A stretch of 64,000 bases of DNA, taken from NCBI GenBank assembly GCA_021234155.1, contig JAJEKV010000058.1:6086600-6150599 (forward strand), read 5' to 3'. Positions 1,951 through 54,330 of this stretch are shown piece after piece; within the stretch, counting starts at the first letter, position 1, and each line of letters starts with the position of its first letter. The position numbers and the translations under genes are program-made. The notes beneath the pieces were generated by a model. That model was not told the origin of the DNA and ran no database searches. It worked only from the letters and a program-made list of their open reading frames with translations. The DNA comes from Isoetes taiwanensis. Its lineage: Eukaryota; Streptophyta; Lycopodiopsida; Isoetales; Isoetaceae.

Positions 1951-2423
1951 ATGGGGGTTAGAGTCTTTGTGATGTTTCTGATCTTGAAGCTGGCATCAGT
2001 CCAGGTTCCTAAAATTTTGCAGATGCTGAAATATTTGCAGGCGTTTAAATGTAATGTTTAAGTTTGCAGCTGTTTAAAGTTGGTTTAATTTTGCAGGGTT
2101 ACTGCGGTTACAAGATCAGCATCAAGACTGGAGAGCAAGGTACTGGCGGAAATGTGAGTGCCCTGTTTTATAACCGAAATGGCGTGGCAGTATATTTCAT
2201 AGGCCTCGACAATACTTTAAAAGATGACTTTGAGATCAACCATGTGGACACCTTCGATACGGAGGGAGTTTGCGTTACTGGGATTTGCAGATTAACTCTA
2301 CTTCATGACCAACCTGCGGGCTGGCTTGTCAGCTATGTGCAAATTAGCAAAGACGGTTTTTCTGCCATTCGTTTTAACTTAAATCGCTGGCACTACAACT
2401 CCAGTAGTGTCAACATGTGTTAG
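1951..2423 (+). CDS. Secreted PLAT/LH2-domain protein (ATS3/PLAT-plant-stress type)
   Basis: Proposed exons are 1951-2004 and 2097-2423, with a 92-bp GT-AG intron in phase 0, giving 126 residues. Exon 1 encodes an almost pure signal peptide (MGVRVFVMFLILKLASVQ). Exon 2 starts GYCGYKISIKTG and reads through a whole PLAT beta-sandwich: the YxIxIKTG strand, a glycine-rich turn (GTGGN), the ALFYNRNG strand, a D-x-F core, cysteines at GVCVTGIC, LTLLHD, and the closing GWLVSYVQIS strand. Plant PLAT proteins are small secreted or ER-linked stress proteins that bind lipid or protein partners. The length fits the family. A second acceptor at 2069 is also in frame and would add nine residues. The donor (gttcct) is weak, so the join is inferred. 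The gene stands alone, 1.4 kb upstream of the receptor kinase on the same strand. Confidence 0.72.
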
Positions 2424-3385: not shown

Positions 3386-5072
3386 ATGGCAAAAGTGCGA
3401 AGTATTGCCTTGTGCGCAATGATTCTTACAATACGATATGTATTTGCAGTAGACCACCATGTAGGTGGGAGTATGGGGTGGGCTAGTGGTGTCAATTACA
3501 TAGAATGGGTTGCTAATGAGACATTCGTTGTTGGAGACTCATTGAGTAAGTCTTGATTTTGTCCTTTACACTATTTTCCCCATCTCCTTTTTCTATTATT
3601 GCTATTTTATCTTTTTCTTTTTTTCCCTTTAAACTATCTATATTTGTATTGAGTTCTAAATCCTCGTATTTTTCTGTGCAACAGCTTTTGTATTTGATAA
3701 CAAACAGTACGACCTAGTTGAGGTCACAAAAAGTGGATATGAGGATTGTTATACTGATGCCACCACATACATAAGTGGTAACATGTCATTCATACTTGAA
3801 GAAGCGAAAATATATTACTACATCACCACTCTTGGGAACTTCTGCTCAACATCTCAGATGAAGCTAGCAGTCACTTCTGGTGCATTGCCATGTAAACCTA
3901 CATACATTTTCACACCATCTTCAACATCAAATACACCATCTTCAACATCAAACACATGTTCTTCTTCCACTACTATTATCCTAGCATCTATATGTGGTTT
4001 TATGCTTTTGATCCTTGTTATACTTCTAGCTTATGCCTGCATTAAATGTACGTCTAAAGAAAGGGAGGCAAATTGTTACGATTGGAATTCCAACTTTAAA
4101 TCAATAATTGTTAGGCCATTCAGCTATACTGAGCTCCATAATGCCACCAACGGATTTGACCAAGAAGAGCTTCTTGGGCAAGGTGGTTTTGGAAAGATTT
4201 ATAGAGGGCTATTGGCACATGATGAATCACATATTGCTGTCAAGGTCATGGGACAAGCTACTACACATGATAATCAACAATTCATTGCAGAAATTACGAC
4301 AATAGGACAAGTGAGGCACAAAAACTTGGTCAACTTGAGGGGTTGGTGTCGTGAGCGAGATAAATTAATCTTAGTATATGATTACATGCAAAATGGTAGC
4401 CTGGATCAATATCTATTTTCAGTGGACAAAGTCCTCCCATGGAATGACAGGTATAATATAGTGAAAGGCATAGCAGAGGGACTTGCATACTTGCATAGGG
4501 GATGTGCTCAAAACGTTGTGCACAGAGACATTAAGGCTGCAAATGTTCTTTTGGATTCTAAATTAGAGGCTCATTTAGGGGATTTTGGCTTGGCAAGATT
4601 CCTTGATGAAGCTAAAATACAACAAACCATGACTCATGTTGGCACTTGGGGATATATTGCTCCAGAATTAGCTATGTTTGGTAGAGCTACTGAAAAATCT
4701 GATGTCTTCAGCTTTGGAGTTCTATTACTCGAGGTGGCATGTGGAAGGCGTGCAATCGATGATTCTATGGCGATGGAGTCTGAAGAAAATAATTTTTTGG
4801 TCGAATGGGTTTGGAATGCTCAAGTACAGGGTAAATTGCTAGAAGTAGTTGATCCTAAGCTTACACCATACAAAAAAGAAGAGATTATATTAGTCTTGTC
4901 CTTAGGACTATTGTGCAGTCATCCAGATGCAGAACAAAGACCAACTTCTAGAAGGTGTTGCCTTATCTTAAATCAAGAAGTTCCACTACTAGAACTTCCA
5001 CATCATAAACCAAATATTAGATTGGGTTCAGTGCGCACACATGGCTTAAGACGTCTTGTAGTTCCAGTATAA
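3386..5072 (+). CDS. Receptor-like kinase with a phytocyanin/ENODL ectodomain
   Basis: Exons 3386-3545 and 3685-5072 join across a GTAAGT...CAG intron of 139 bp (split codon ACT), giving 515 residues. Residues 1-21 are a signal peptide (MAKVRSIALCAMILTIRYVFA). Residues about 26-117 are a phytocyanin fold: VGGSMGW, the VGDSLTFVF strand, VEVTKSGYEDC, GNMSFIL and MKLAV. The two disulfide cysteines (YEDC, GNFC) are kept, but the copper-ligand positions read Tyr, Thr and Asn/Phe, so it is the non-copper ENODL type. A Ser/Thr-rich linker (PSSTSNT twice) and a membrane helix (about 151-173) follow. The kinase (about 212-490) is complete: GQGGFG, IAVKV lysine, HRDIKAANV (RD type), DFG and APEL. The kinase half resembles L-type lectin receptor kinases (EVPLPELP-like tail). 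The start was chosen because it gives both signal peptide and domain. It probably senses a cell-wall or membrane ligand; the ligand is unknown. Confidence 0.88.
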
Positions 5073-18057: not shown

Positions 18058-19410
18058 ATGGACGATAGTGGCTCCAGCAACACTAGTAGTGGAAATGCTT
18101 ATTTACCAGGCCGTGCATCCGCGTCCTCATCTTCATCATCGTCCTCGTCCTCGTCCGTTCCATCGCCCCACCGAAGACACAGAAAAAGACCTAGAAATGA
18201 CCCCGTTGAGGCATTGTACCTCAATCGTGAAAGTTGTTGGTGCAATACATGTCGTGGTAGTGCTACGCGTTCTTATCATGTTCGACAAGAACATGAGGCA
18301 AGATATGGCATGTGGCGAAACAGGCCACAACAAAGTGACGAAGAATTTCGGCTCGAGCAGCAAGCCAGCGAGGTATGCTACCAATACCCTCTCAGAAGAA
18401 AGGAAAAAGAAAGATAAACATGTGATCAATGTAACATATGATTAGATTTTGTTTAGTTGGCACATGCATTTGATTATTTCAATTCTTTGCAGTTCATTAT
18501 GTCAGGAAAAAATAGTGCACGAAAATTTATGATAGACGATGAAGAACCTAGATGTAGTTTTATCAACTCAGTAAAGAGAGCACAAAATTCTAGCATGGGG
18601 AACCTTCTTTCGCATGGCCATAGTCTCAGATCAAGTACACGTGTGTGCACTAGATCTAACACTGCAGCAATGCAAATCAAAACTCGATTTGCTACTATGG
18701 ATTTGGATCATGATAATGAGACTAGAAATGATCTTCTTATGTCAATGCCTAAAGCTTTGCTAGAAAAAATCGTGCCTTATAATCGTAAGATGCATGGATG
18801 TTTAGAAGGAAGCTTGCCCCCGATGTTACAAGAGTTTTATTACTGGGGCCGCAAGTACATGATAGCTCCATCTATTTTGAAACCCGATGCAGGAAGAAGC
18901 TTATATATAATGGAACCAGTCAATGTGCTTGAGACAAATAATTCTGTCACGTTGATGGCTTATGGAGGTCCTGCTTATGATTGGGGGACGTGGCACGAAT
19001 TGGCTTCATGGATGCCAAGCATGTCAACATATGGGATCGCATCAAACGCAGCATCATTGAGGGAGGCTGGGATTAAGTCTCGAGATGCCCGGATATATGT
19101 TGATGGGAGGCCACAATTGCATGGCAACGTTGCAGGATTGATTAACAGTTCTTGTGGCATTTATGGTGTGCTTCCTAATGCAGAATTTGTCGAAGTAGAT
19201 TGCATTGAACCGATTCCGCAATACATGGAGGGTCCTATAGTTGGAACCTATGTTGTTGTTTGTGCTACACGTAGCTTAAAACCTGGTGACGAGTTGTTAA
19301 TTCCTTATAATTGGAGGAGGCCTATTCCTCGTAGAGTTCAACGTCTTAGGAGGGGGGGTCCTGTTATGGTTCCTCGTGGAAGGCCTCATAAGAATAGAGA
19401 AAATGTGTAG
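18058..19410 (+). CDS. SET-domain protein carried by the CACTA element
   Basis: Exons 18058-18372 and 18493-19410 join in phase 0 (GAG|GTATGC ... TTTGCAG|TTC), giving 410 residues. The N-terminus has a poly-Ser run and a possible zinc-binding patch (CWCNTCRG...HVRQEH). The C-terminal half reads as a SET domain: AGRSLYIMEPVNV then MAYGG (SET-N), IYVDGRPQLHGNVAGLINSS (the N-x-A-x-x-IN core), a PNAEFVEV strand, and ATRSLKPGDELLIPYNW (matching the xxRxIxxGEELxxxY block). The usual NHS reads NSS, and the last catalytic Tyr aligns with IPY. After it comes a basic tail with an AT-hook-like RGRP. SET proteins usually methylate lysine. It sits 216 bp upstream of the transposase on the same strand and may share its transcript. 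Activity is unproven. Confidence 0.75.
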
Positions 19411-19626: not shown

Positions 19627-22600
19627 ATGATGTTATATATTCAGTCCTCGGGTGACGAATCATTGAATGGAGAACCATCAACTTCAAACAATACTTTCAT
19701 TGGTGGGGACGTGATACATGAGACTATTACAAATTACTTTCCAGTTGGTCAACAACCAGAAGATGGTAATGGTGGAAATTGCGAGTCTGACAATGCATTC
19801 AGGGATAAGGCAGATTTTCTACACGATGAAGCTACAACCCCATTGTATCCAAATGCACGCGTGTCTCGTTTTGCGACATGTTTGCTTATTTTGAACCTTC
19901 AACATAAAGTTGGTTGGAGCAACAATAGTGTCTCTGAGCTTTTCAGGTACGTACATACAGCTTTCACAATTTGTGTTTTCTATGCACATGATTCCTAATA
20001 ACTACTAACATATGAAAATATTACTCTAGTCTACTAGGCAAAATACTACCCGACGGCCATTGTCTTCCAAAGTCAAGGAGAGAGGCAAGAGAGTTGTTTC
20101 GTTCACTGGGCCTAGAATATAATTGCATACATGCCTGCGTCAATGATTGCATATTATTTCGCAACAATTATGCGGGAGATCAAACATGTCCAAAATGTAA
20201 TGAGCCACGTTATGAGGAGGGTAGGAGGTCGAAGGTGGCAAGGAAAACATTGCGACATATGCCTATCATTCCTCGTTTACGTCATATGTTTCGATCTCCA
20301 TCCCTTGCCTCATTTATGGATTATCATGCAAAGAACCGTAGTACTGATGGAAAAATGAGGATGCCTGCAGATGGAGAGTCGTGGAAAAATATCGAAGAAA
20401 AATGGCCACAATTTAAATTGGAGTCTCGCAATATTAGACTTGGACTAGGACTCGATGGAATATGCCCCTGGGGATCTATGTCATCAAAACATAGTGTGTG
20501 GCCAATAGCTGTTGTGAACTATAATATTCCACCGTGGATGGCTACCAAACCTGGTCATATCATGTTGACGTTGATTGTTCCAGGTACTTATTTTACTTTT
20601 TACTCATAAGCTATTTATAGATATGAATTGAATGGAAATGATTTGACTTGAATTCAATGGAGAAGATGCAGTTGTTGAAGCTGTTCAAATCTATTTACCA
20701 ATAAACATGTATGCATTTTGTAGGAAAATATCAAGTTAAAAATATGGATGTCTATATGGAACCTTTGGTAGAGGAATTGGAATTGTTATGGAAGGGGATT
20801 CATATGTATGATATTTCAAGAGAGCCACATGATTTCACGTTACACGGTATGCTATGTTTCACTATTCATGACTATCCAGGCTTTTCTGTGGCATCTGGTA
20901 AGTTCTATTTACAAATGGCATGGTTTAGAAATCTTTGGATTGTTCAAAAATCATAGTAAAAATTTTGTTATTTGTAACACAACAGGTCTACAAACGAGTG
21001 GAGCATGTGGTTGTTCTTCATGTGGAACTAGCCTAACATCATATAGGTCCAGACATCTCAAGAAGCAAATATACTTTGGTCACAAGAAATATTTGCCTGA
21101 AGAGCATCATGCACGTGGACGTGAGGTGATGCCGCCACCAAAACGTTGGACAAGTAGGGATTGGTTGGATGCTTGGCAGAATGCAAACCCAGATTTGGAT
21201 TACTTGGCCAATGCCGGAGAAAGCAATACAAATCTCCCACCTGGAATGAAACGTTTATCTATATTTTATCGATTGGAGTACTGGGCAGACTTGGAAGTCG
21301 TGCATTTATTGGATCCCATGCATATATTCAAGAACATTGCACACTCTCTTTGGAGGCATCTAACTGGTGAATGGGAAACATTAGGAGCTAGAGAGGATCT
21401 TAAGGAAAGAGGAATAAGAAGAGATTTATGGCCAAATGAGAGGGCTGGCAGAGGAACCACATGGAAAAAGGGACCTTGGGTGTTAGAGAAACAACAACTT
21501 GCAACAGTGCATAAGAGAATACAAAAAAGTCGAACACCGACTGGATATGGTGCATCCCTAAGAAAAGCATTTACAAAAGATGGAGATCTTAGTGGGTTGA
21601 AAACACATGATTGGCACAAATTTCTTCAGGTAATTTATTCTTTACTTTTAATTATTGGAATTACATAGTTGCACGTATTGAACTATTGTTTGTTGTTATA
21701 GCATATTCTTCCATGCGTCATTGGAAACTATTTAACACCGGCAATAAGGAGTATCATATACCGATTAGGAAAATTCGTGAGATGGGTATCCTCAAAGGAA
21801 ATTGATGTCTCTGAGATTACAAAGATGGAGGAGGAAGCTATTTTACTTTTATGTGATATTGAAAAGGAGTTCCCTACTAGCTTCTTAGATCTACAAGTAT
21901 GATCCTTACGCCCATTTTTTTCCATGTTGACATGCATATATTTTGCTAACTAATGAGATGAGATGATGACATTGATGTAGGTGCACTTATTAATACACAT
22001 TCCAAATGAGATTAAATTAGCTGGACCTGCCCCTGCACGATGGATGTTCTTCCTCGAGCGTTATATGAAGGTGCTCAAAGGATTTGTACGCCAAATGGCT
22101 AAGCCAGAAGGGTGTATGGCCGAAGGTCATCTCATACAAGAAACTCTTTTCTTCTTGAATGATGTGACCATTGCATGCAATCCAGATGGCCTTAAAATGT
22201 GGGAGGAAAAGGAGGCGGATGAGATTATATCAGAAGTTTTACAAGGCAATGGTGTGGAGCAGAATCTGACTGATGAAATGTTTCGTTCTGTAAATGCCTT
22301 CATCATAAATAACACAACAACTTTGCAACCTTGGCGAGACATGTATGAACGTGCAAAGGAGGAAGCACAAAGGAATGGCTCACACAGACGTGGTTCAACA
22401 ATTGAACAAGGTGCTTTGGCAGACACCATGACCAATGATTGGTTATTAGCCCGTATGGATGAAGCAAAAGATAGTGGACAAGTCATTCCGGATGATGATT
22501 ACGAGATTGCTATTGGATGCAATAAAAAGGTATGAAATGAAAGTATTTATTTTCTTTCATCAAAAAATCATATATTGGAAAATATAATAAGTTTGGAAAA

Positions 22601-23524
22601 CTTGATTTTGCTAATTACACTTCTGTTATTTAGGCGCGATTTCATACATCTATGTGGGCTTACGGACAGCACTTTCGTATCAGTAATGTTGATAAACATA
22701 GAGTTACTTTTGACTCTGGAATCATGGCACACTTTGAGCAAAAGAGTCAAGCAAGCAGTAGGGATCGTAACCTTATTGATGGTGAATTATGCTATGTTGG
22801 AACCATATCCAATATCATTGAGTTAAACTATCGGACGTTTCACGTTAATGTCTTGAAAGCAAAGTGGTTCAGAGTTGTTTATAGAGGTCGTGGAAGAACA
22901 ATAAAAACACATGCTTCTGGATTTATGGAGATTGACTCCACAAAAGTGCTAGCAGATATGGATGAGCCATTTGTTTTTCCAAATCAAGTTGAGCAAGTCT
23001 TCTTTCATCCAGATCCTGACAATAATGATTGGTGGATCGTTATACATTCTCAACCTAGATCCCGTCGTGTGATTGGAAATCCTGCAATTGAAGACAACAT
23101 TGAGCCAATATCTGATGATGAAGATCGGCAACCGGAGCATATAGCAGAGGATTTCACACTAGCAATAGAAAGGGACGTTGATGTATCACACTTCGATACT
23201 ATCGAAGGCAATACTACACCTATATGGGATAATGAAGGTGCAAATGATTCATTACCTCAACCATCAGATATTAATGATGGTATAAATGAAGGAGATACTG
23301 ATTTTATTTTTCGACCTCCAATGATGAATTCTCCTCCACGAGATGAGGCTGGAAGCAGTGGGCAACTAAGTGACAATGGCATTAATGATGACTATATTGA
23401 AGACGAAGAAGTTCCAAGCATTGCTTCAGGTTTTAATTTGCGTACAAATTTGTACTTGCATTTGGATGATGATGAGTTGGACGATATTGAGCATGATATT
23501 GAAGACCACTTCAATGCTTTATGA
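19627..23524 (+). CDS. CACTA transposase (Transposase_21 / TNPD-like), seven exons
   Basis: Exons 19627-19946, 20030-20583, 20724-20897, 20986-21629, 21702-21896, 21981-22529 and 22634-23524 all have GT-AG borders and matching phases, giving 1108 residues. The domain order is that of plant En/Spm transposases: LYPNARVSRFATCLLILNL; LGLEYNCIHACVNDCILFRN with a CxxC pair (CPKCNEPRY); the catalytic core (LGLGLDGICPWG, VWPIAVVNYNIPPW, VYMEPLVEELELLW, FTIHDYPG); a CxC/CxxC cluster; LLDPMHIFKNI; then DUF4218 (HIPNEIKLAGPAPARWMFFL, AKPEGCMAEG) and DUF4216 near the C-terminus, with an acidic tail. It cuts and joins element ends. An acceptor-like 'tatattcag' at 19635-19643 suggests upstream exons may also splice in. 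No stop or frameshift was found. Confidence 0.92.
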
Positions 23525-28908: not shown

Positions 28909-29910
28909 CTATGGCACATCATTCTCCATTGCTGTCATCAAATGTGGAATCATTTCTTCTTCTATTGTCTCTAGTCTTTTGCTTTTTCCATCAGCCTCTC
29001 TTACATGCTCATCAACTTTAATTCCTTTATCTGCCAATTCTTTTTTAAGTCTTTCTGCCTCAGACATCCTTTTTCTTTGTTTACAAGCAATACTTCCTTC
29101 TTGTACTACCTCTTGGTTAAGGTTATTATCTTTCATGCTTCCTTGTGCCATTTTGTCTGAATCTCCATCATCATCACTGTCAAATTCAGAGTTATGATTT
29201 GTTCTCTCTATTTCATCTGTCTTATTCTTATTTTGTGTTTCCAGATCCTTGAAATCCTTATATAGCTGCTTTTCTGAGAATACAACATCTCTGCTTATCA
29301 CTATCTTCTTCTTGCTTGGGACATAAAATCTGTATGCTTTAGATTCCTCGTCATATCCAATCAAAAATGCAGTCAAAGCCCTGTCATCTAATTTACTTCT
29401 CAATTCTTCTGGAATGTGTACATATGCCAAGCAGCCATAGGATCTAAACCTTTCATATGTTGGCATTCTTTTGGTCCATAGCAGCTCTAGTATTTCTCCA
29501 TCTATACTTGCACTTGGAACCCTGTTTTATATGTAAATTGTAGTTTTCAATGCTTCTTCCCATAATACATTTGGCAATCCAGCATGCTTTAGCATAGCCC
29601 TAACTGCATTTAAACATGTTCGATTATTTCTCTCTGCTACCCCATTCTGCTGGGGAGAATACCTGCATGTTAATTGCCTCTTAATTCCCTTCTCGATGCA
29701 AAATGCTTTAAATTTCTTTGATATATACTCACCTCCCCTGTCTGACCTTAAACATTTCACTTTATAATCTGTTTCTCTTTCTACTTCATTCAAATATTTT
29801 TTAAATGCTTTCAAAGCCTCATATTTTTTTGCCAAACAGTAGCATTTAGCTTTTTCTAGTGTAATCATCTATAAAAGTGATGAAATACCTTTTTCCAGAA
29901 TAGCTTCTTA
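28909..29910 (-). pseudogene. Copia integrase core and C-terminal region (frame-broken)
   Basis: At 29868-29527 the integrase core is clear (LRSDRGGEYISKKF; GIKRQLTCRYSPQQNGVAER), holding the second catalytic Asp and the Glu of the DDE triad. The first part of the core (an FIDDY-type motif near 29880) lies in a neighbouring frame. The 29466-28909 frame carries the downstream copia segment (FRSYGCLAYVHIP; FLIGYDEESKAYRFY), then a charged linker rich in Asp and Glu. At least two frameshifts separate these pieces. Confidence 0.85.
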
Positions 29911-31570
29911 CATTGAGGGGGCCACATATGTCTGTATGTATCAGCTCCAATGGTGTTTCTGCCATTTGATCTTCTGCCAAAAGGAAGCCGAGTACTTTTT
30001 CCTATCATGCAACCCCTGCAAACAAAATTCTTTTGATCTTCATTTGCAGCACTAATATATCCAAGTGTGTTCAAGGCTTTCACATTGTTTATATTTGTAT
30101 GCCCTAACTCATGCCAAGTTTTATAGTTAGGAAGTGACACATTATTAACTGCTGGAACATTTTCAAAACCATCCAACTCAAAAAGATCTCCAACTCTTTT
30201 TCCCAAAAAACATGTTTTATTATCCTTCACAATTCTGCATACAAGCTTGTCAAATAGGACCTGATAATCAAGGTCAACTAATTGACTTACAGAGATTAAG
30301 TTTTTCACTATAGAGGACACACAAAGAACTTTCTCAATTTCCACTGGATTTCCTTGTAAATCAAACAATTTCAACATGCCTCCAGCCTTCACTTCTTTAA
30401 TTCTGCCATCTCCCAAACGTATATTCCTTGTCTTCTGCTCCTTATCACATCTTGTCAGCAAATCTGGAGATTCTATGATTGTTCTTTCAGCTCCCGAATC
30501 TACAATAAAAGATACTTTAGAATTTTGTGCTTTGCTCAAATAGTTAGAAAAAGTATTTGTTACCTCCTCTTCTGAATCTTCCTCCTCACATTCTACAACA
30601 GCAACATTTGTACTTGTTGCCTTGGCACCCCTGCCTCTTCCTTTATTTGCATTCCAATTATTTGATCTGCCCCTGCCCCTATCCCTGCCCCTGCTATTGT
30701 CCTTTGGGCTTGGGCATTTAGAAGCCACATGTCCTACTCCTCCACATGTATAACAAGTTCTAATATTTTGATCACTTCTCGGGCAATTATATTTTAAATG
30801 CCCTACTTTCCCACAACCAAAGCATGGACCAATTTGCCTACCTCTGTCATTATAGGCTTTTCCCTTTTTTACCAGATTCCTCCTCATCCTCATTGTCATT
30901 TTCAATCACAGATTTTTGCTCTATTTCAGTTCTTGCAATCTGCTCAGCCTCCTCCCTAGTTCTGGCCACAGTCCTTATTAGTGTAGCCAAGGTTTCAAAA
31001 TTAGCAAACATTTTAGAAATAGCCAAGATTTGATGACTTACAGACATTATTATCCCTGATGCTTCCAAATCTGCACAAAGGGAATCAAACTTATCGAACA
31101 TTGTGGTCAGGTCAGTTTTCTCATCAAATCTCATTTTTCTAATTTCCTTTTCCGAGACATCTATCTGTGAGGAGCATTTTGTCTGATATGTTTTGATCAA
31201 ATACCTCCATGCATCCCTAGGACTCAAGCTTAAGCATTATGCTTGGTGCAACTTTGCATATAATTATGGCCTTAGCCTGACATAATTTCAAGTCGTCACT
31301 TGTTCTATCACTACTGACACTCACCTCTTTGGATTTTGCAGCAAACTCTCCAGATTTTGCTGTTGAAGTTTCTCCTATGGCTGAGCTGCTAACTTCATCA
31401 TCAACACTAGTACTTAGTTCAATTATGTGCCATAATCCTTCAAATTGCGGGACCTCTTTAATTCTCTCTTTCCATATCTGAAAGCCTTCAACTCCCTGAA
31501 ATACTTCAACTGAGCTTAGAAGCGTAGCTCCAAAACGTATGGACATTGTTCTAGCTAGCTTTGATACCAC
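29865..31570 (-). pseudogene. Copia gag, protease and pre-integrase region (frame-broken)
   Basis: Gag starts near 31533 (MSIRFGATLLSS), continues through the 31227-30850 frame (a UBN2-type capsid pattern) and into 30905-29865. That last frame has two CCHC zinc knuckles (CFGCGKVGHLKYNC and CYTCGGVGHVASKC), an RG-rich basic patch, the aspartic protease motif FIVDSGAERTII, and the integrase HHCC zinc site (WHELGHTNI ... CRGC). Two CCHC knuckles in tandem are less common than one in plant copia gag. Frame breaks near 31220 and 30900 make it inactive. Confidence 0.85.
31558..31569 (-). promoter_or_regulatory. Primer-binding site of the copia element
   Basis: On the minus strand TGGTATCAAAGC complements the 3' end of initiator Met tRNA. 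It lies just inside the LTR end (...CTTTCA), as expected for the start of minus-strand DNA synthesis. Confidence 0.75.
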
Positions 31571-41927: not shown

Positions 41928-42903
41928 TCAGCAGGCAATTTCACAGGGCCTCACTGTTCTGATGAGCTTAGCAGGAACACCATATTTGAAGCATGGCCTC
42001 TTACGTTTTAAGCCCTGAGGCGCACTTCTACTAGCACTAGAATAATATTTGGCAACCCAGGGATGTGCCAAAATTTGCTGCACAGATATCCTTTCCTCCG
42101 GATCAGGCTGCAACATCGCCAAAACAAGGCTCTTTGCTTCTTCTGACACCAACCCAACTGGCCAATGCAAGTGTGAGGCAGCCAGATCCTCGCCATGAAG
42201 CAGTTCTTCGATGATTTCTGCAGTTTGTAGACTTGAGAAGTGATCATTCCCTGTAAGCGCCCCATACAGGATCAAACCCAGACCCCATATGTCTATCTCT
42301 GTGGAATAATATCCCTGCACAACCTCTGGAGCAGAAATATCTTAGTGTTCCGACTCTGGATGTAAAACTGGGAGCCGAACCTGTAAAACGAGCCGATAGG
42401 CCGAAATCCGAAACCCTAACATCATAGGGTTTTGCTGCTGAGGTCACAAGAACGTTTCCCGGCTTCAGATCCCGGTGGATAATGCCCTTGTGATGAAGAT
42501 CCTGTATAGCTAGAGCAAGATTTCGAATAAGAAGAGCAGCTTCCTTTTCACATAGCCTGCCTTTCTTCACGATTACATCAAGCAAGCTACATTCGCATAA
42601 TTCCATGATCAAGTGCCAGAATCCCTCGTCTTTGATTACTTCGTGTATATGCACTATGCTAGGGCTGCTGGCTAACTTCTGCATGATCTCTACTTCCTTG
42701 ATCGGCTCTGTGTCTCCTACCCAGATGATTTTGCAAGCAAACTCTTTCTTACCTTCTGTTTTACTTCTGCAGCGAAAAACCGTAGCTTGGCCACCGCTGC
42801 CGATTTCCTTAAGCAGATCATAGCTCTTCAAAAGATTGGGAAATAAAGCAGAATAGTAGTAGTTGAGAATTTCTTCGTCTGTCTCCTCCGTCTTCGTCTC
42901 CAT
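41928..42903 (-). pseudogene. Ser/Thr protein kinase (CAMK/CDPK-like) with one frameshift
   Basis: From ATG 42903 (METKTEETDEE) the first frame carries the glycine loop (IGSGGQATVF), the ATP lysine (FACKII), the catalytic loop (IIHRDLKPGNVLV), DFGLS and SRVGTLRYF. The second frame resumes with APEVVQGYYSTEIDIWGLG and runs through the C-lobe (HPWVAKYY) to a basic tail (GLKRKRP) and stop at 41928. The break is a single extra base near 42333, just before APE. Restoring the frame would give about 325 residues, the size of a bare kinase like PEP-carboxylase kinases and related CAMK proteins. Everything else looks intact, so either a very recent pseudogene or a sequencing error. TATA box and leader are present. 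Confidence 0.8.
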
Positions 42904-42928
42904 ACTCAGAATTCTGTAATGCCAACAC

Positions 42929-42982
42929 AATGCAAATGCAAATGCAAATGCAAATGCAAATGCAAATGCAAATGCAAATGCA
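42929..42982 (-). repeat. (AATGCA)9 hexanucleotide repeat in the kinase leader
   Basis: Nine perfect copies lie between the TATA box (42996-42990) and the start codon (42903). On the coding strand it reads TGCATT repeated. The expected transcription start, about 30 bp past the TATA box, falls inside it. Confidence 0.95.
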
Positions 42983-42989
42983 GACGTTC

Positions 42990-42996
42990 TTTTATA
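42990..42996 (-). promoter_or_regulatory. TATA box of the minus-strand kinase
   Basis: On the minus strand the sequence is GGTATAAAAGAACG, about 90 bp upstream of the ATG. The position fits a short leader made largely of the hexamer repeat. Confidence 0.55.
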
Positions 42997-44049
42997 CCTT
43001 TGTATGACTCTGCACTTTCCATTCTAAAAATATCTCAGTTCTATTCCTGGTTTTCAGGAAAAGGCCACATCTAAATTAGGAAAAATCCCAGATATTTGTG
43101 TGCTGTCCGTCGGATGTTGGCACGATCCCAAAGCCAACTATGCCGCCCGTTGATGCACAAACACATTGACATGCTCGCAGAAATAGATATGCTTACCATA
43201 CATAAGGATATTTTCGGATTTGGCTCGTTTCTCTGTGGCATCCAAGGACTGGTATGAACAAATCTATTCAAATGCCTTTTGGGAAAGAAAACCCGCATGC
43301 AATTATGAAATACTCTGTTGTTTGAATAAATCCTTGGATGTTTCGTAGGTTTACCTTACTCTATTTACAGATCAGCAGTTCACTGGAATGATGACACTTA
43401 CTCTGTTTACAGATCAGCAGTTCGCTGAAATGATGCATCTCCAGCCTTGCATGGCCACGAACTATCTAGCCTTATCTAGCCATCAATATAACTATGAATT
43501 GGAGGCAGTCCAATATTTCCAGGTTGGTCTCAATTGCACCTTGATGCATAGTTTCATTTCTATATCGATGTTTGGTGCATAGTTTCATTTCATTTGGAGG
43601 CATGCCATGTGTAGAGATAGATAGTCTATGCTATAAAATGCGTGTTAAGTTACCAGTCTTATGCAATCACATGCAGGACAGTTCTTTATCATCGTGGCAT
43701 AAAATGTAAAGCTCCTCAGAGCTTTGAGTATATGGCTGTGGGACGACTGTTTCAACTGGTCAAATATGTAGATGAGTTATAACATGTCTAGAAGAGCAAG
43801 GCGTGCTGTGTCTACAGTCATGCAATTCAGTGCTATCATTATAGCAAACTGAAAAGTGCAGAACATTTTCCAAGTTGGATTTTCAAGGAGAACTGCTTCT
43901 CAGTCATTCTCCAATTGAATTCTCAGCCACGTACAAGTATTGTCCATATAAATGTTGCTTTCCTCCCTCCTTCATGCAGAAAAATAACATGTGTGAATTG
44001 GCCTGTTTATTCTATTAATTTGCCGGTTTGATATACCAAAAAAATGGAA
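42997..44049. other. Intergenic DNA, no gene recognised
   Basis: A phrase (tactctatttacagatcagcagttc / tactctgtttacagatcagcagttc) is duplicated near 43357 and 43400. No coding region is identified, although upstream exons of the capping-enzyme relic were looked for. Confidence 0.5.
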
Positions 44050-50583: not shown

Positions 50584-53500
50584 TTGAGACAATATAATGC
50601 ACATTATCTTGCTTTGCAAGAGTTGAAGCTCCCTAAATTTGAGGCCTCCAATCTGGGAGATTGGATCTACCTGTGGTCTTCTTCAATTTGGATTGAAGCT
50701 AATGGTACTAGGGGGGCTTGGCTATTATTTGGAAAAAAATCTGCAGCACATCTCTTCTTGCAATAGTGTTTCAAAAAATGTGGCAGTCAGACCTTTTCCT
50801 TGAATAATTCCACCATTGGAGTCATAAATGTTTATGCCTCTACTTGTCCTAAGGAGAGAGAGAAACTTTGGCCTACAATCAATTCTTGGATTTCAAACAA
50901 CTCCAACATTGATTGGATCCTTGCCGGTGATTTTAACAATACTCCTACTTGGGACATGAAGCTTGGGAATAAAATTAATATGTCTATATCTCGAGAGAAC
51001 CTTGTTGGAATAAACTTTTAGCTGATTCATCCATGATTCACATTCCATCCTCTACCTCCATTTATTCTTGGTCTAATAAGCGTAAAGGAAGGGACAGAGT
51101 TTACCGTGCTTTAGACAGATTTTATATCTCTAACCCTCACTTTCGGATCTCTGACAATTGTTATGTATCAAGTGATGATGGAACATCTATCTCGACCACC
51201 AACCCCAATTTCTTTGTACCAAGCATCCGCTAAGTTCCCCAAGGGACATAAACATTCCTTTCAAACTCAACCGCTCTCTTCCACAATGTTTCTTTTCGCC
51301 AGGAGTTTGCTGATTTCTATTCTTCTATTGACTCAGTCTTTTTCAAATTCTTCTATGAAGAACTTTTATCATAAAATCAAAAAGGCTAAAGACTGGATCA
51401 AATCCTGGGCCAAAGATAAGCATAAAGCAAAAATTCAGGAAAAAGAGAGACTTCTGAGCAAAATGAAAGAAATTAGATCCTTGCTTCAAATTGATCCATA
51501 TAACCACAATCTTCATGTTGGAGAAGAAATTGTTGAGAATCTGATTAAAAATATAGAAGAAAGGGATGCCAGGTTCTCTGCAATTAAATGCAAAATTAAA
51601 TACAATAGTGAGATTGATCAGGGCTGCTCAAAATTTTTCTTTAGAGTGGCTAAGTGCAGGCTCCTAAAAAATTCCATCAATCAGGTTATTAACAATTATG
51701 GTACTTCTCTCAGTTCTATTCCTGATATTAAAAATTTCTTCTTTGAGAACTACTCCTCTCTGTTCAAAAAAAGTGATCTTTCTGCTACTGAAGTTGTGGA
51801 CAAAGATAAGTTCATTAGCAATCTAGACACAATCTTACCTTATCCAATTGATAATATGGATATTTCCCTTACTGCTACTCCCAATGAAGATGAGATATAT
51901 AAAACCTTGCTGAGTTTTTCCAAAGATAAGTCCCCTGGCCCAGATGGTTTTCCCCCAGAATTTTATATACAATTTTGGGATATTATGAAAAGAGATGTCA
52001 TCAGTCTTGTGCATGGATTTTGGAATTCCAATCATCTTCATCCCTCAATTTCTGCTGGTTTTATAACTCTAGTGCCTAAGGTTGACAACCCGAGCTCTTT
52101 CTCTGAATGGAGACCAATTTCTCTGACAAATTCATCTTACAAGCTATGTGCTAAAATTATTGCAAAGAGAATTCAATCTTATCTCCAAAAAAATATCAGT
52201 GTCAATCAAACTGCCTTTCTGCCTAATAGATTCATTCTGGATAATTACATCAGTGCCATGGAAGGCTTACACTTGAATGTAATTTCAAATCAATCTTGCA
52301 TCCTGTTGAAGTTGGATTTTAAAAGAGCATTTGATACAGTGAGCTGGGACTTTATTGACCTTGCTTTAAAAAAGATGGGCTTTCAGGCAAAGCTTATCTC
52401 TCTTATACATGGATTAAATTCTATGTCTAATTCTGCTGTGTTGATAAATGGTTCTCCCTCAAATTTCTTCCCTTTAGCTAAAGGTGTCAGACAGGGTTGC
52501 CCCCTAGCTCCCTATCTCTTTCTCATTGTTGCTGAAATGCTGACAAGGAGTGTGCTTCATTTGCAAAATTCGGGAGTTTTAGCTGGTCTGAAACTCCCAA
52601 ATAATTTGGATTCCCTCACAATATCTCAATATGCAGATGATACATTTGCTTTCCTGGACTCTAATACCAGAAATGTCAATACTTTCTTGGATCTTAGCAA
52701 AGAGTTCTCAGCTGCCTCTGGGGTCCATCTTAATTTGGATAAAAGTAAGATTATTGGAGATATTATCCAGCCTTCAATATGTGGCATATCTGTGCTCAAT
52801 ACCAATCAAGCCTCTAATCTCTTAGGCATGCCACTTTCTCTCAATCACAATTTAAAAGGTCTGTGGGATCCAATTCTACAAAGGATAAAGAGGAAGCTGA
52901 ATAATTATAGAAACTGTCTCTCTTTTGCAGGAAGGACAATTATTGCAAATTCTGTCCTAGCTTCTTCTCATGTCTATTTCTCCTCTGCCCTTGTTGCCCC
53001 TAAAGCAATTTATTCTGAGTTGGAGAAAGTAATCCGAAATTTCATCTGGAATGGGTCTCATCTCGTAAACTGGAACTCAATCTCTAGACCTAAAAATTTG
53101 GGAGGTCTGGGATGTAAAAATCTCCATTTACAGGCTTGTTCTCTGGCAGGTAAATATATATGGAGAACACTTATGGGGAATAATTCTCCTGCCTCCATTT
53201 TCATTGCTCATTGGCTGAATATTTCCTATCCTTCTGGTCATCCTTCTATTAAGCATTCACTCCCTGAATCTGCCTTTATTAATATTCATCCTGCTCCAAA
53301 TACTTCTCCTTTGATGAGGAATATGATTATGGCCTGGAATAAAATCCACCCTGAGCTAAAGAGAGATGATCTCCAAGATGCTACTATGAACACTAGCCTA
53401 TTTTGGTCACCTATTTTCTCTGATCCTCATTTAAAAGTTATGGCTATCAAGCATCCAAAAATTTATAGCAGATGGGCCACTAAAGGGATCACTACTATCA

Positions 53501-54330
53501 AGGATCTTTATAGAAATAATAATTCCTTTATTTCTTGGACTGCTTTAAAATCCGTGCTCAGAGGGACTTCCACTGATAAGAAAATGTATGTCTACTTTAA
53601 GACTATCCTAGCTACTTTCAATAATTTCAATGACTTCAATAGCTCGACTGGTTGCACTATAAATGGGAAGTTAGTCTATAAGGTAAAGGAAATTTACTCT
53701 TTGATAAATGTTGCTGATGCTCCTCTAAAAGCTATGATGAAATGGTCTTTGGATCATCCCCAAGTCCTTTCTCTTTTCAAAAATGTTTGGAACTCCTACT
53801 GCACTCCAAAAATCAGATTCTTTGTTTGGTTAATTGCACAAAAGAGCCTCACAAATTTGGTTTCTTTGTCTAGGAGAATTAATGTATCTACTGTCTGTCA
53901 CTCTGGCTGTTTTCAGAATGAGACTTTAGAGCATATCTTTCTTTGTCCCAAACTTAGACCTTTCTAGATTTGGTTCATTGATAAAACTGGCCATTACCTT
54001 AAAAAAAGGAACTTTGATGACATTATTGACTTCGTGCAACAAGGTGATATCTTTGCTAATACTCTTGTCCATACTGCCTTATGGAACATTTGGAAGTCTA
54101 GAAATAGAATCCTTTATGCCTCTAAACCTCTTTCTACTTTCTGGATTAAAATGCATTTCCAGTTAGATATTGAAGCTATTGCCACATGTCACAAGAGGAA
54201 AGCTGGAGATAAATACAACACTTGTTGGAATGTGATAGGGCTTTTCAGGGGCCACTTTGACTTATTTGTTTCCAACCTCAATGTTATTGATTCTAATGCT
54301 CCATACTCTGATTGTGACAGATTATCTTAA
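50584..54330 (+). pseudogene. LINE ORF2: endonuclease, reverse transcriptase, zf-RVT
   Basis: Endonuclease motifs lie in three frames: LALQELKLP (50605), GVINVYAS and ILAGDFNNTP (50818-50950), and SIYSWSNKRKGRDRVYRALDR (51058-51120). The frame from 51163 then stays open to 53967. It has KSPGPDGFPPEFY, LLKLDFKRAFDTVSWDF, GVRQGCPLAPYLF, the catalytic QYADDTFAF, LNLDKSKI and the thumb. It ends in the zinc-binding region (NVSTVCHSGCF...ETLEHIFLCP). After a stop at 53967 the typical tail continues (TALWNIWKSRNR) to 54330. The reverse transcriptase itself looks intact; the endonuclease is broken in at least two places. Confidence 0.9.

Follow-up and report, generated by a model that had tools for sequence, protein, structure and literature searches.

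Phytocyanins are known mostly as GPI-anchored wall proteins whose jobs are unclear; some of them work beside receptor kinases, and ENODL14/15 pair with FERONIA, according to the account given in PMC6726743. Kinase-type chimeric AGPs and phytocyanin-like AGPs have been counted as distinct groups (PMC5266747). Receptor kinases with a plastocyanin-like ectodomain are on record in one of the sources consulted, with 12 'Plastocyanin-like-RLK' counted among 40,418 sequences from 80 plant species (RLPredictiOme, PMC9603095, Table 1), and the same source lists SNC4 (GDPDL-RLK), of another small class with an unusual extracellular domain on a receptor kinase. The string 'cyanin' is absent from the main text of a fern receptor survey (PMC12512272), and no functional study of phytocyanin-type receptor kinases was found in the literature searched, which left most subscription journals outside.

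Here we describe a gene of this design at 3386..5072 on the plus strand of a 64,000-nucleotide stretch of Isoetes taiwanensis DNA (hereafter, the window). Like the Plastocyanin-like-RLK as described in PMC9603095, it joins a plastocyanin-like ectodomain to a kinase; in that source the class is known by its count, so that the window family is compared with it by description only. The design is rare but already recorded. The original prediction did not know it as a common receptor-kinase class; the 12 sequences of PMC9603095 precede it. With the phytocyanins (uclacyanin, stellacyanin, plantacyanin, ENODL), the window protein shares the domain, the disulphide cysteines and the phase-1 intron, but it has no GPI-anchor end, carries a kinase, and has three copper ligands replaced. 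ENODLs are likewise without copper ligands, but the pattern in the window protein is unlike that of the ENODL-like sequences of the same genome and, instead of receiving a GPI anchor, its chain continues through a helix into the kinase. The L-type lectin receptor kinases (LecRKs) resemble it in the other half: the closest PDB kinase is an L-lectin kinase and legume-lectin loci are among the close genomic kinase relatives, whereas the window ectodomain is a phytocyanin, with no match to Lectin_legB, the legume lectin domain, at E up to 0.001. SNC4 likewise has an unusual extracellular domain on a receptor kinase, but its ectodomain is a different one.

Structure of the receptor kinase gene

The gene comprises two exons. 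Exon 1 (3386..3545) encodes residues 1-53 and one base of codon 54, including a predicted signal peptide (3386..3448, residues about 1-21; an N-terminal hydrophobic stretch recognized by hydropathy and sequence reading) and the start of the phytocyanin domain. The intron (3546..3684; 139 nt, 53% T, GTAAGT...CAACAG) is in phase 1, and exon 2 (3685..5072, stop included) is a single open frame that encodes the remaining phytocyanin domain, a linker, a membrane helix and the kinase. The spliced product (3386-3545 joined to 3685-5072) is 515 aa long and starts at the ATG at 3386, the first Met of the exon-1 open stretch. When four GT/AG joins were tried from this ATG, only 3545/3685 kept the frame open. 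Exon 1 by itself has no Pfam match, whereas exon 2 by itself carries, in the same open frame, a Cu_bind_like match of 23.2 bits (profile positions 25-82; cut-off 20.8) and Pkinase, and its 461 open codons would arise by chance with a probability of about 8e-13 under a first-order model of the window. The fusion therefore does not depend on the splice, since the kinase and part of the phytocyanin domain share one frame within exon 2; exon 1 adds the missing first part of the domain and raises the Cu_bind_like score from 23.2 to 49.3 bits, which supports the 3545/3685 join. The two-exon frame and the fusion that had been read from the DNA thus stand, and an annotation artefact caused by a false splice was ruled out, the fusion being present already within exon 2.

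In the spliced protein, Cu_bind_like spans residues 32-109 (E 5e-13, 49.3 bits against a cut-off of 20.8), and the second part of the domain, encoded at 3685..3878, extends to about residue 118 as judged from Pfam, PDB matches and alignment. The best sequence matches of the ectodomain in the PDB are mavicyanin (E 2.8e-11), umecyanin (4.3e-10) and cucumber stellacyanin (5.7e-9), so that the assignment to the cupredoxin family holds at the sequence level. When restricted to the portion encoded by exon 2, the domain matches PDB sequences weakly (best E 0.51), and an AlphaFold2 model made from exon 2 alone, without an alignment, has a mean pLDDT of 35.6, too low to inform on the fold, the sole block above 70 lying in the membrane helix. 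The domain is followed by a Ser/Thr-rich linker (3879..3971) containing a 21-nt tandem repeat (3911-3956, TPSSTSN twice), by a transmembrane helix predicted from hydropathy (3972..4040, residues about 150-172), and by an RD-type Ser/Thr kinase domain that is lectin-receptor-kinase-like by Pfam, PDB, motifs and genome search (4158..4958; PK_Tyr_Ser-Thr, E 3.5e-49). The G-loop, Lys, Glu, HRD, DFG and APE motifs are all present. The best PDB match of the kinase is 6cth, annotated as 'Concanavalin A-like lectin protein kinase' (1.1e-80, 274 bits), the only L-lectin kinase among the PDB matches listed, followed by BAK1 (4.7e-60, 206 bits). Hydropathy, Pfam and motif reading thus recover the signal peptide, linker, helix and complete RD kinase of the original prediction, and its comparison of the kinase half with lectin receptor kinases is borne out by the rank of 6cth ahead of BAK1.

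The position of the intron links the receptor gene to ordinary phytocyanins. Unfused phytocyanin genes of the same genome break at the same codon, in phase 1, in 7/7 cases where both ends were read (some of these are near-copies, and L025 was counted after allowing one codon of read-through), and the position is the same in 4/4 genes for which the donor only was read. The phase-1 intron is also present at three of the related receptor loci described below (L061, L069 and L071). The splice models of unfused phytocyanins used in the alignment below assume the phase-1 position by rule; intron conservation is drawn from the separately read loci. In ten plants treated in PMC4499708, most phytocyanins are reported to have a conserved phase-1 intron within the domain. 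Judged by position and phase, the receptor intron is this conserved phytocyanin intron.

Elsewhere in the window, a second, distant protein kinase gene extends over two overlapping ORFs on the minus strand (41928-43023), a split that may reflect an intron or a frame break. Transposon parts are found at 20016-23524 (Transposase_21 and DUF4216, CACTA-like), 28909-30905 (Copia-like Gag/Pol) and 51115-53967 (LINE-like reverse transcriptase ORF, 950 aa), and an ORF at 18457-19410, close to the CACTA-like element, matches the SET domain (E 7e-6). No Rfam match exceeded the gathering score. A search of viral contigs yielded one stretch that matched a pattern and no relative, and a separate contig search yielded one bacterial kinase match (L001).

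Copper site and affinities of the ectodomain

Type-1 copper sites require the His, Cys and His ligands, which ENODLs are without; the second His is the solvent-exposed ligand and forms the electron exit route of cupredoxins. We aligned the window ectodomain with 20 unfused phytocyanin models (16 distinct) of the same genome, obtained from 23 splice models after removal of three (that of the window gene, L022 and a spurious one at L034); they come from 19 of the 38 fetched loci, the other 19 having given none under the model rule. Both disulphide cysteines of the window ectodomain (Cys75 and Cys107) are present, the ligands are replaced by other residues (His62 by Tyr, Cys101 by Thr, His106 by Phe), and the axial Met112 column is kept. 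The statement that the copper ligands are lacking is therefore accurate for three of the four, the exception being the axial Met.

Six receptor-type ectodomains were compared, five attached to a kinase and one (L070) to a helix only. The second copper His is absent in all six (F, L, L, D, K, Y; in L071, the column hinges on a nearby two-residue gap in the alignment) and present in 20/20 unfused models, whereas the axial Met is kept in 6/6 and the Cys ligand in 5/6 receptor-type ectodomains. A label shuffle, set before the last two rows joined, gave 9e-5 for four losses falling on those four of 24 rows; the rows are related, so the number of independent loss events is smaller. Loss of the second His would end redox work.

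In a tree of the phytocyanin models of this genome, the window ectodomain is sister to L061 plus L070 at 100/99. A group of 12 rows supported at 99/98 unites the receptor-type ectodomains with the unfused L024, L025 (two), L026, L034 and L035, all of which retain His, Cys and His. L013, L014, L016 and L017, in which Asp replaces the first His and, in L013 and L014, Ser also replaces the Cys, are placed elsewhere; we call these four ENODL-like by their ligand pattern alone, in a tree that contains no named ENODL. Because the window ectodomain groups with ligand-bearing phytocyanins, away from the Asp rows, its loss of copper ligands looks independent of the ENODL kind. The 'ENODL-type' label originally attached to it has accordingly been dropped, and an origin of the ENODL type is rejected on present evidence. 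Among the unfused phytocyanins closest to the receptor ectodomains are some of the genes that form a local cluster of unfused phytocyanins at C1026:14652000-14736500.

Related loci and ectodomain exchange

Searches of the genome listed 122 matches to the kinase, window included, and 71 matches to the ectodomain at E up to 1. Besides the window gene, six loci pair a phytocyanin match with a neighbouring kinase match, and one more is reduced to a weak remnant. The phytocyanin match has E 1.5e-21 in C1089 (L061/L062), E 1.2e-21 in C941, E 2e-7 in C241 and E 1.4e-5 in C1057 at 1.62 Mb (L071); in C974 (L069), the two exons match at E 0.0014 and 0.18, and in C1055 (L060/L063), exon 1 matches at E 0.099 and exon 2 exceeds the Pfam cut-off. 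The remnant is in C223 (L048; tblastn E 0.012). In L071, of which the first part was fetched, the ectodomain and kinase lie in one stop-free open frame of 515 aa, and this locus looks intact. Five of the seven loci are broken: L061 has a frame shift late in the kinase, L060 a stop early in the kinase C-lobe, L069 a kinase without the N-lobe, C941 two stops in the kinase match, and L048 stops in the ectodomain. In C241, both matches are free of stops; C941 and C241 were judged by coordinates only. The family may be decaying, and some of the breaks could be assembly errors. L070 (C1034) consists of a phytocyanin and a helix and ends there, with no adjoining match in the kinase list. No kinase was found by tblastn (E 0.01) in the fetched neighbourhoods of 41 Cu_bind_like matches (E up to 0.001), a list from which diverged receptor copies, such as the window gene itself, are absent and which hence provides no receptor count. 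A one-off fusion is ruled out by the six further loci and the remnant.

A coding stretch with a PLAT/ATS3 domain (2055..2423, plus strand) is located about 1 kb upstream of the receptor gene. A PLAT/ATS3 stretch with 47% identity (E 6e-35) also lies upstream of L061, the closest relative (about 759-1184 on its minus strand), so this stretch is perhaps part of a duplicated block rather than of the receptor; it is absent at the other fetched loci compared, whose flanks are short.

Compared up to the frame break of L061, the window gene and L061 are 55.3% identical over 416 codons (dN 0.355, dS 2.0, dN/dS 0.177). The ectodomains are 61.5% identical (96 codons, dN/dS 0.21, dS 1.45) and the kinases 61.8% identical (241 codons, dN/dS 0.094, dS 2.9); with dS at 1.5-2.9, near saturation, these dN/dS values are rough. 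A whole-paranome peak at Ks 1.8, attributed in PMC8566536 to an ancient genome duplication in I. taiwanensis, is not far from this dS of about 2, although dS is unreliable at such a level.

The kinase lineage carries ectodomains of several kinds. We looked upstream of 17 of the 122 kinase relatives, chosen by high identity and, beyond the first eight, mostly because their open frames were short, so that the share of each type among them is no census; 14 of the 17 could be assigned a type, and L050, L055 and L058 were left unassigned. Phytocyanins are found at L061 and L060 (Pfam), at L069 and L071 (reading and alignment), and as the remnant at L048. Legume lectin domains are located upstream at L054 and L057 (Pfam) and L052 (reading), the lectin stretch of L057 being in a different frame from the kinase; L049 has a bulb lectin with PAN (Pfam). 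The Stress-antifung/DUF26 type is represented by L056 (Pfam on the first unit, E 1.7e-8), with frames separate from that of the kinase, and, by resemblance, L051 and L053. The hevein type occurs at L059 (1801 bases; with L067) as two Chitin_bind_1 stretches (Pfam, E 4.8e-24) and, by reading, at L068:841-2501, where the second hevein unit is in frame with the kinase. By reading, L056 has three near-identical tandem units upstream of the kinase, and the hevein-type receptor kinases L059/L067 and L068 have a Ser-Pro linker. Five ectodomain types on one kinase lineage make ectodomain exchange well supported, as the original prediction had suggested for the window gene, and PMC10834447 describes domain swapping as RLKs arose, those of the L-lectin type among them.

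The trees bear on whether the receptors had one origin or several. Grouping of the six receptor-type ectodomains as one clade is not rejected (p-AU 0.17; 0.053 with three rows and 0.065 with four), but the free trees do not group them. For the kinases of the window gene, L061, L060 and the remnant L048, a single clade is rejected (p-AU 9e-5). A sister pairing of the window and L061 kinases is doubtful (p-AU 0.022), though their ectodomains are sisters at 100/99; when two PDB rows were included, the kinase tree did not settle where the window kinase belongs. Because the L061 kinase row has 241 residues only, this conflict is treated as suggestive. Its simplest reading is a swap of ectodomain or kinase following duplication, with gene conversion, or a model error on the 241-residue row, as other possibilities.

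Possible function and alternative explanations

Considering the sequence evidence as a whole, we regard it as likely that the gene is real and one of a small family, and jointly, that it encodes an ordinary single-pass receptor kinase with a copper-free, binding ectodomain. That the gene is expressed, how its product lies in the membrane, that the ectodomain binds a ligand in place of doing redox chemistry, and how the signal passes downstream are what we infer. The phytocyanin-fold domain, with most of the copper site gone, probably no longer transfers electrons, and would bind a ligand or partner at the cell wall, such as a wall glycan, an AGP or another receptor. Binding would bring the RD kinases together, leading to trans-phosphorylation and LecRK-like signalling. 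The pairing of ENODL14/15 with FERONIA indicates that a phytocyanin fold can serve receptor signalling.

That pairing, as described in PMC6726743, also speaks for a variant in which the ectodomain binds no soluble ligand itself and instead links the kinase to a partner, either GPI-anchored or a second receptor kinase; given that the window ectodomain falls outside the ENODL-like group of this genome, we consider such a co-receptor role rather unlikely. We see somewhat less reason to believe in a chance fusion that is now being lost, in which a phytocyanin gene came to stand before a LecRK-type kinase and the frame is open by luck, with no receptor function. The breaks in 5/7 related loci and the large size of the kinase family, with its several ectodomains, are what one would expect from such accidents, but the window gene is open across 515 codons, L071 is open throughout, the window gene and L061 have the PLAT neighbour in common, and the ectodomain and the kinase are conserved to nearly the same extent against L061 (see above), with dN/dS well below 1. 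It appears highly improbable that the ectodomain still handles copper or redox chemistry and that the receptor acts as a sensor of copper or reactive oxygen in the apoplast: the retention of the axial-column Met in every receptor-type ectodomain, and of the Cys in all but one, would fit such a sensor, but the window protein is devoid of His62, Cys101 and His106, and the second His is missing throughout the receptor type.

The preferred reading, that of a copper-free binding receptor, admits a broader and more tentative extension. The LecRK-type lineage might be a hub of ectodomain exchange that captured phytocyanins more than once, with the captured domains losing the second His and becoming a class of copper-free ligand-sensor receptors; we consider this possible, but doubtful. 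A receptor with a covalently attached phytocyanin domain would allow the binding partners of a copper-free phytocyanin to be sought directly, and the I. taiwanensis genome, with phytocyanin, legume-lectin, bulb-lectin, DUF26-type and hevein ectodomains on one kinase lineage, may serve as a compact case of the origin of new receptors.
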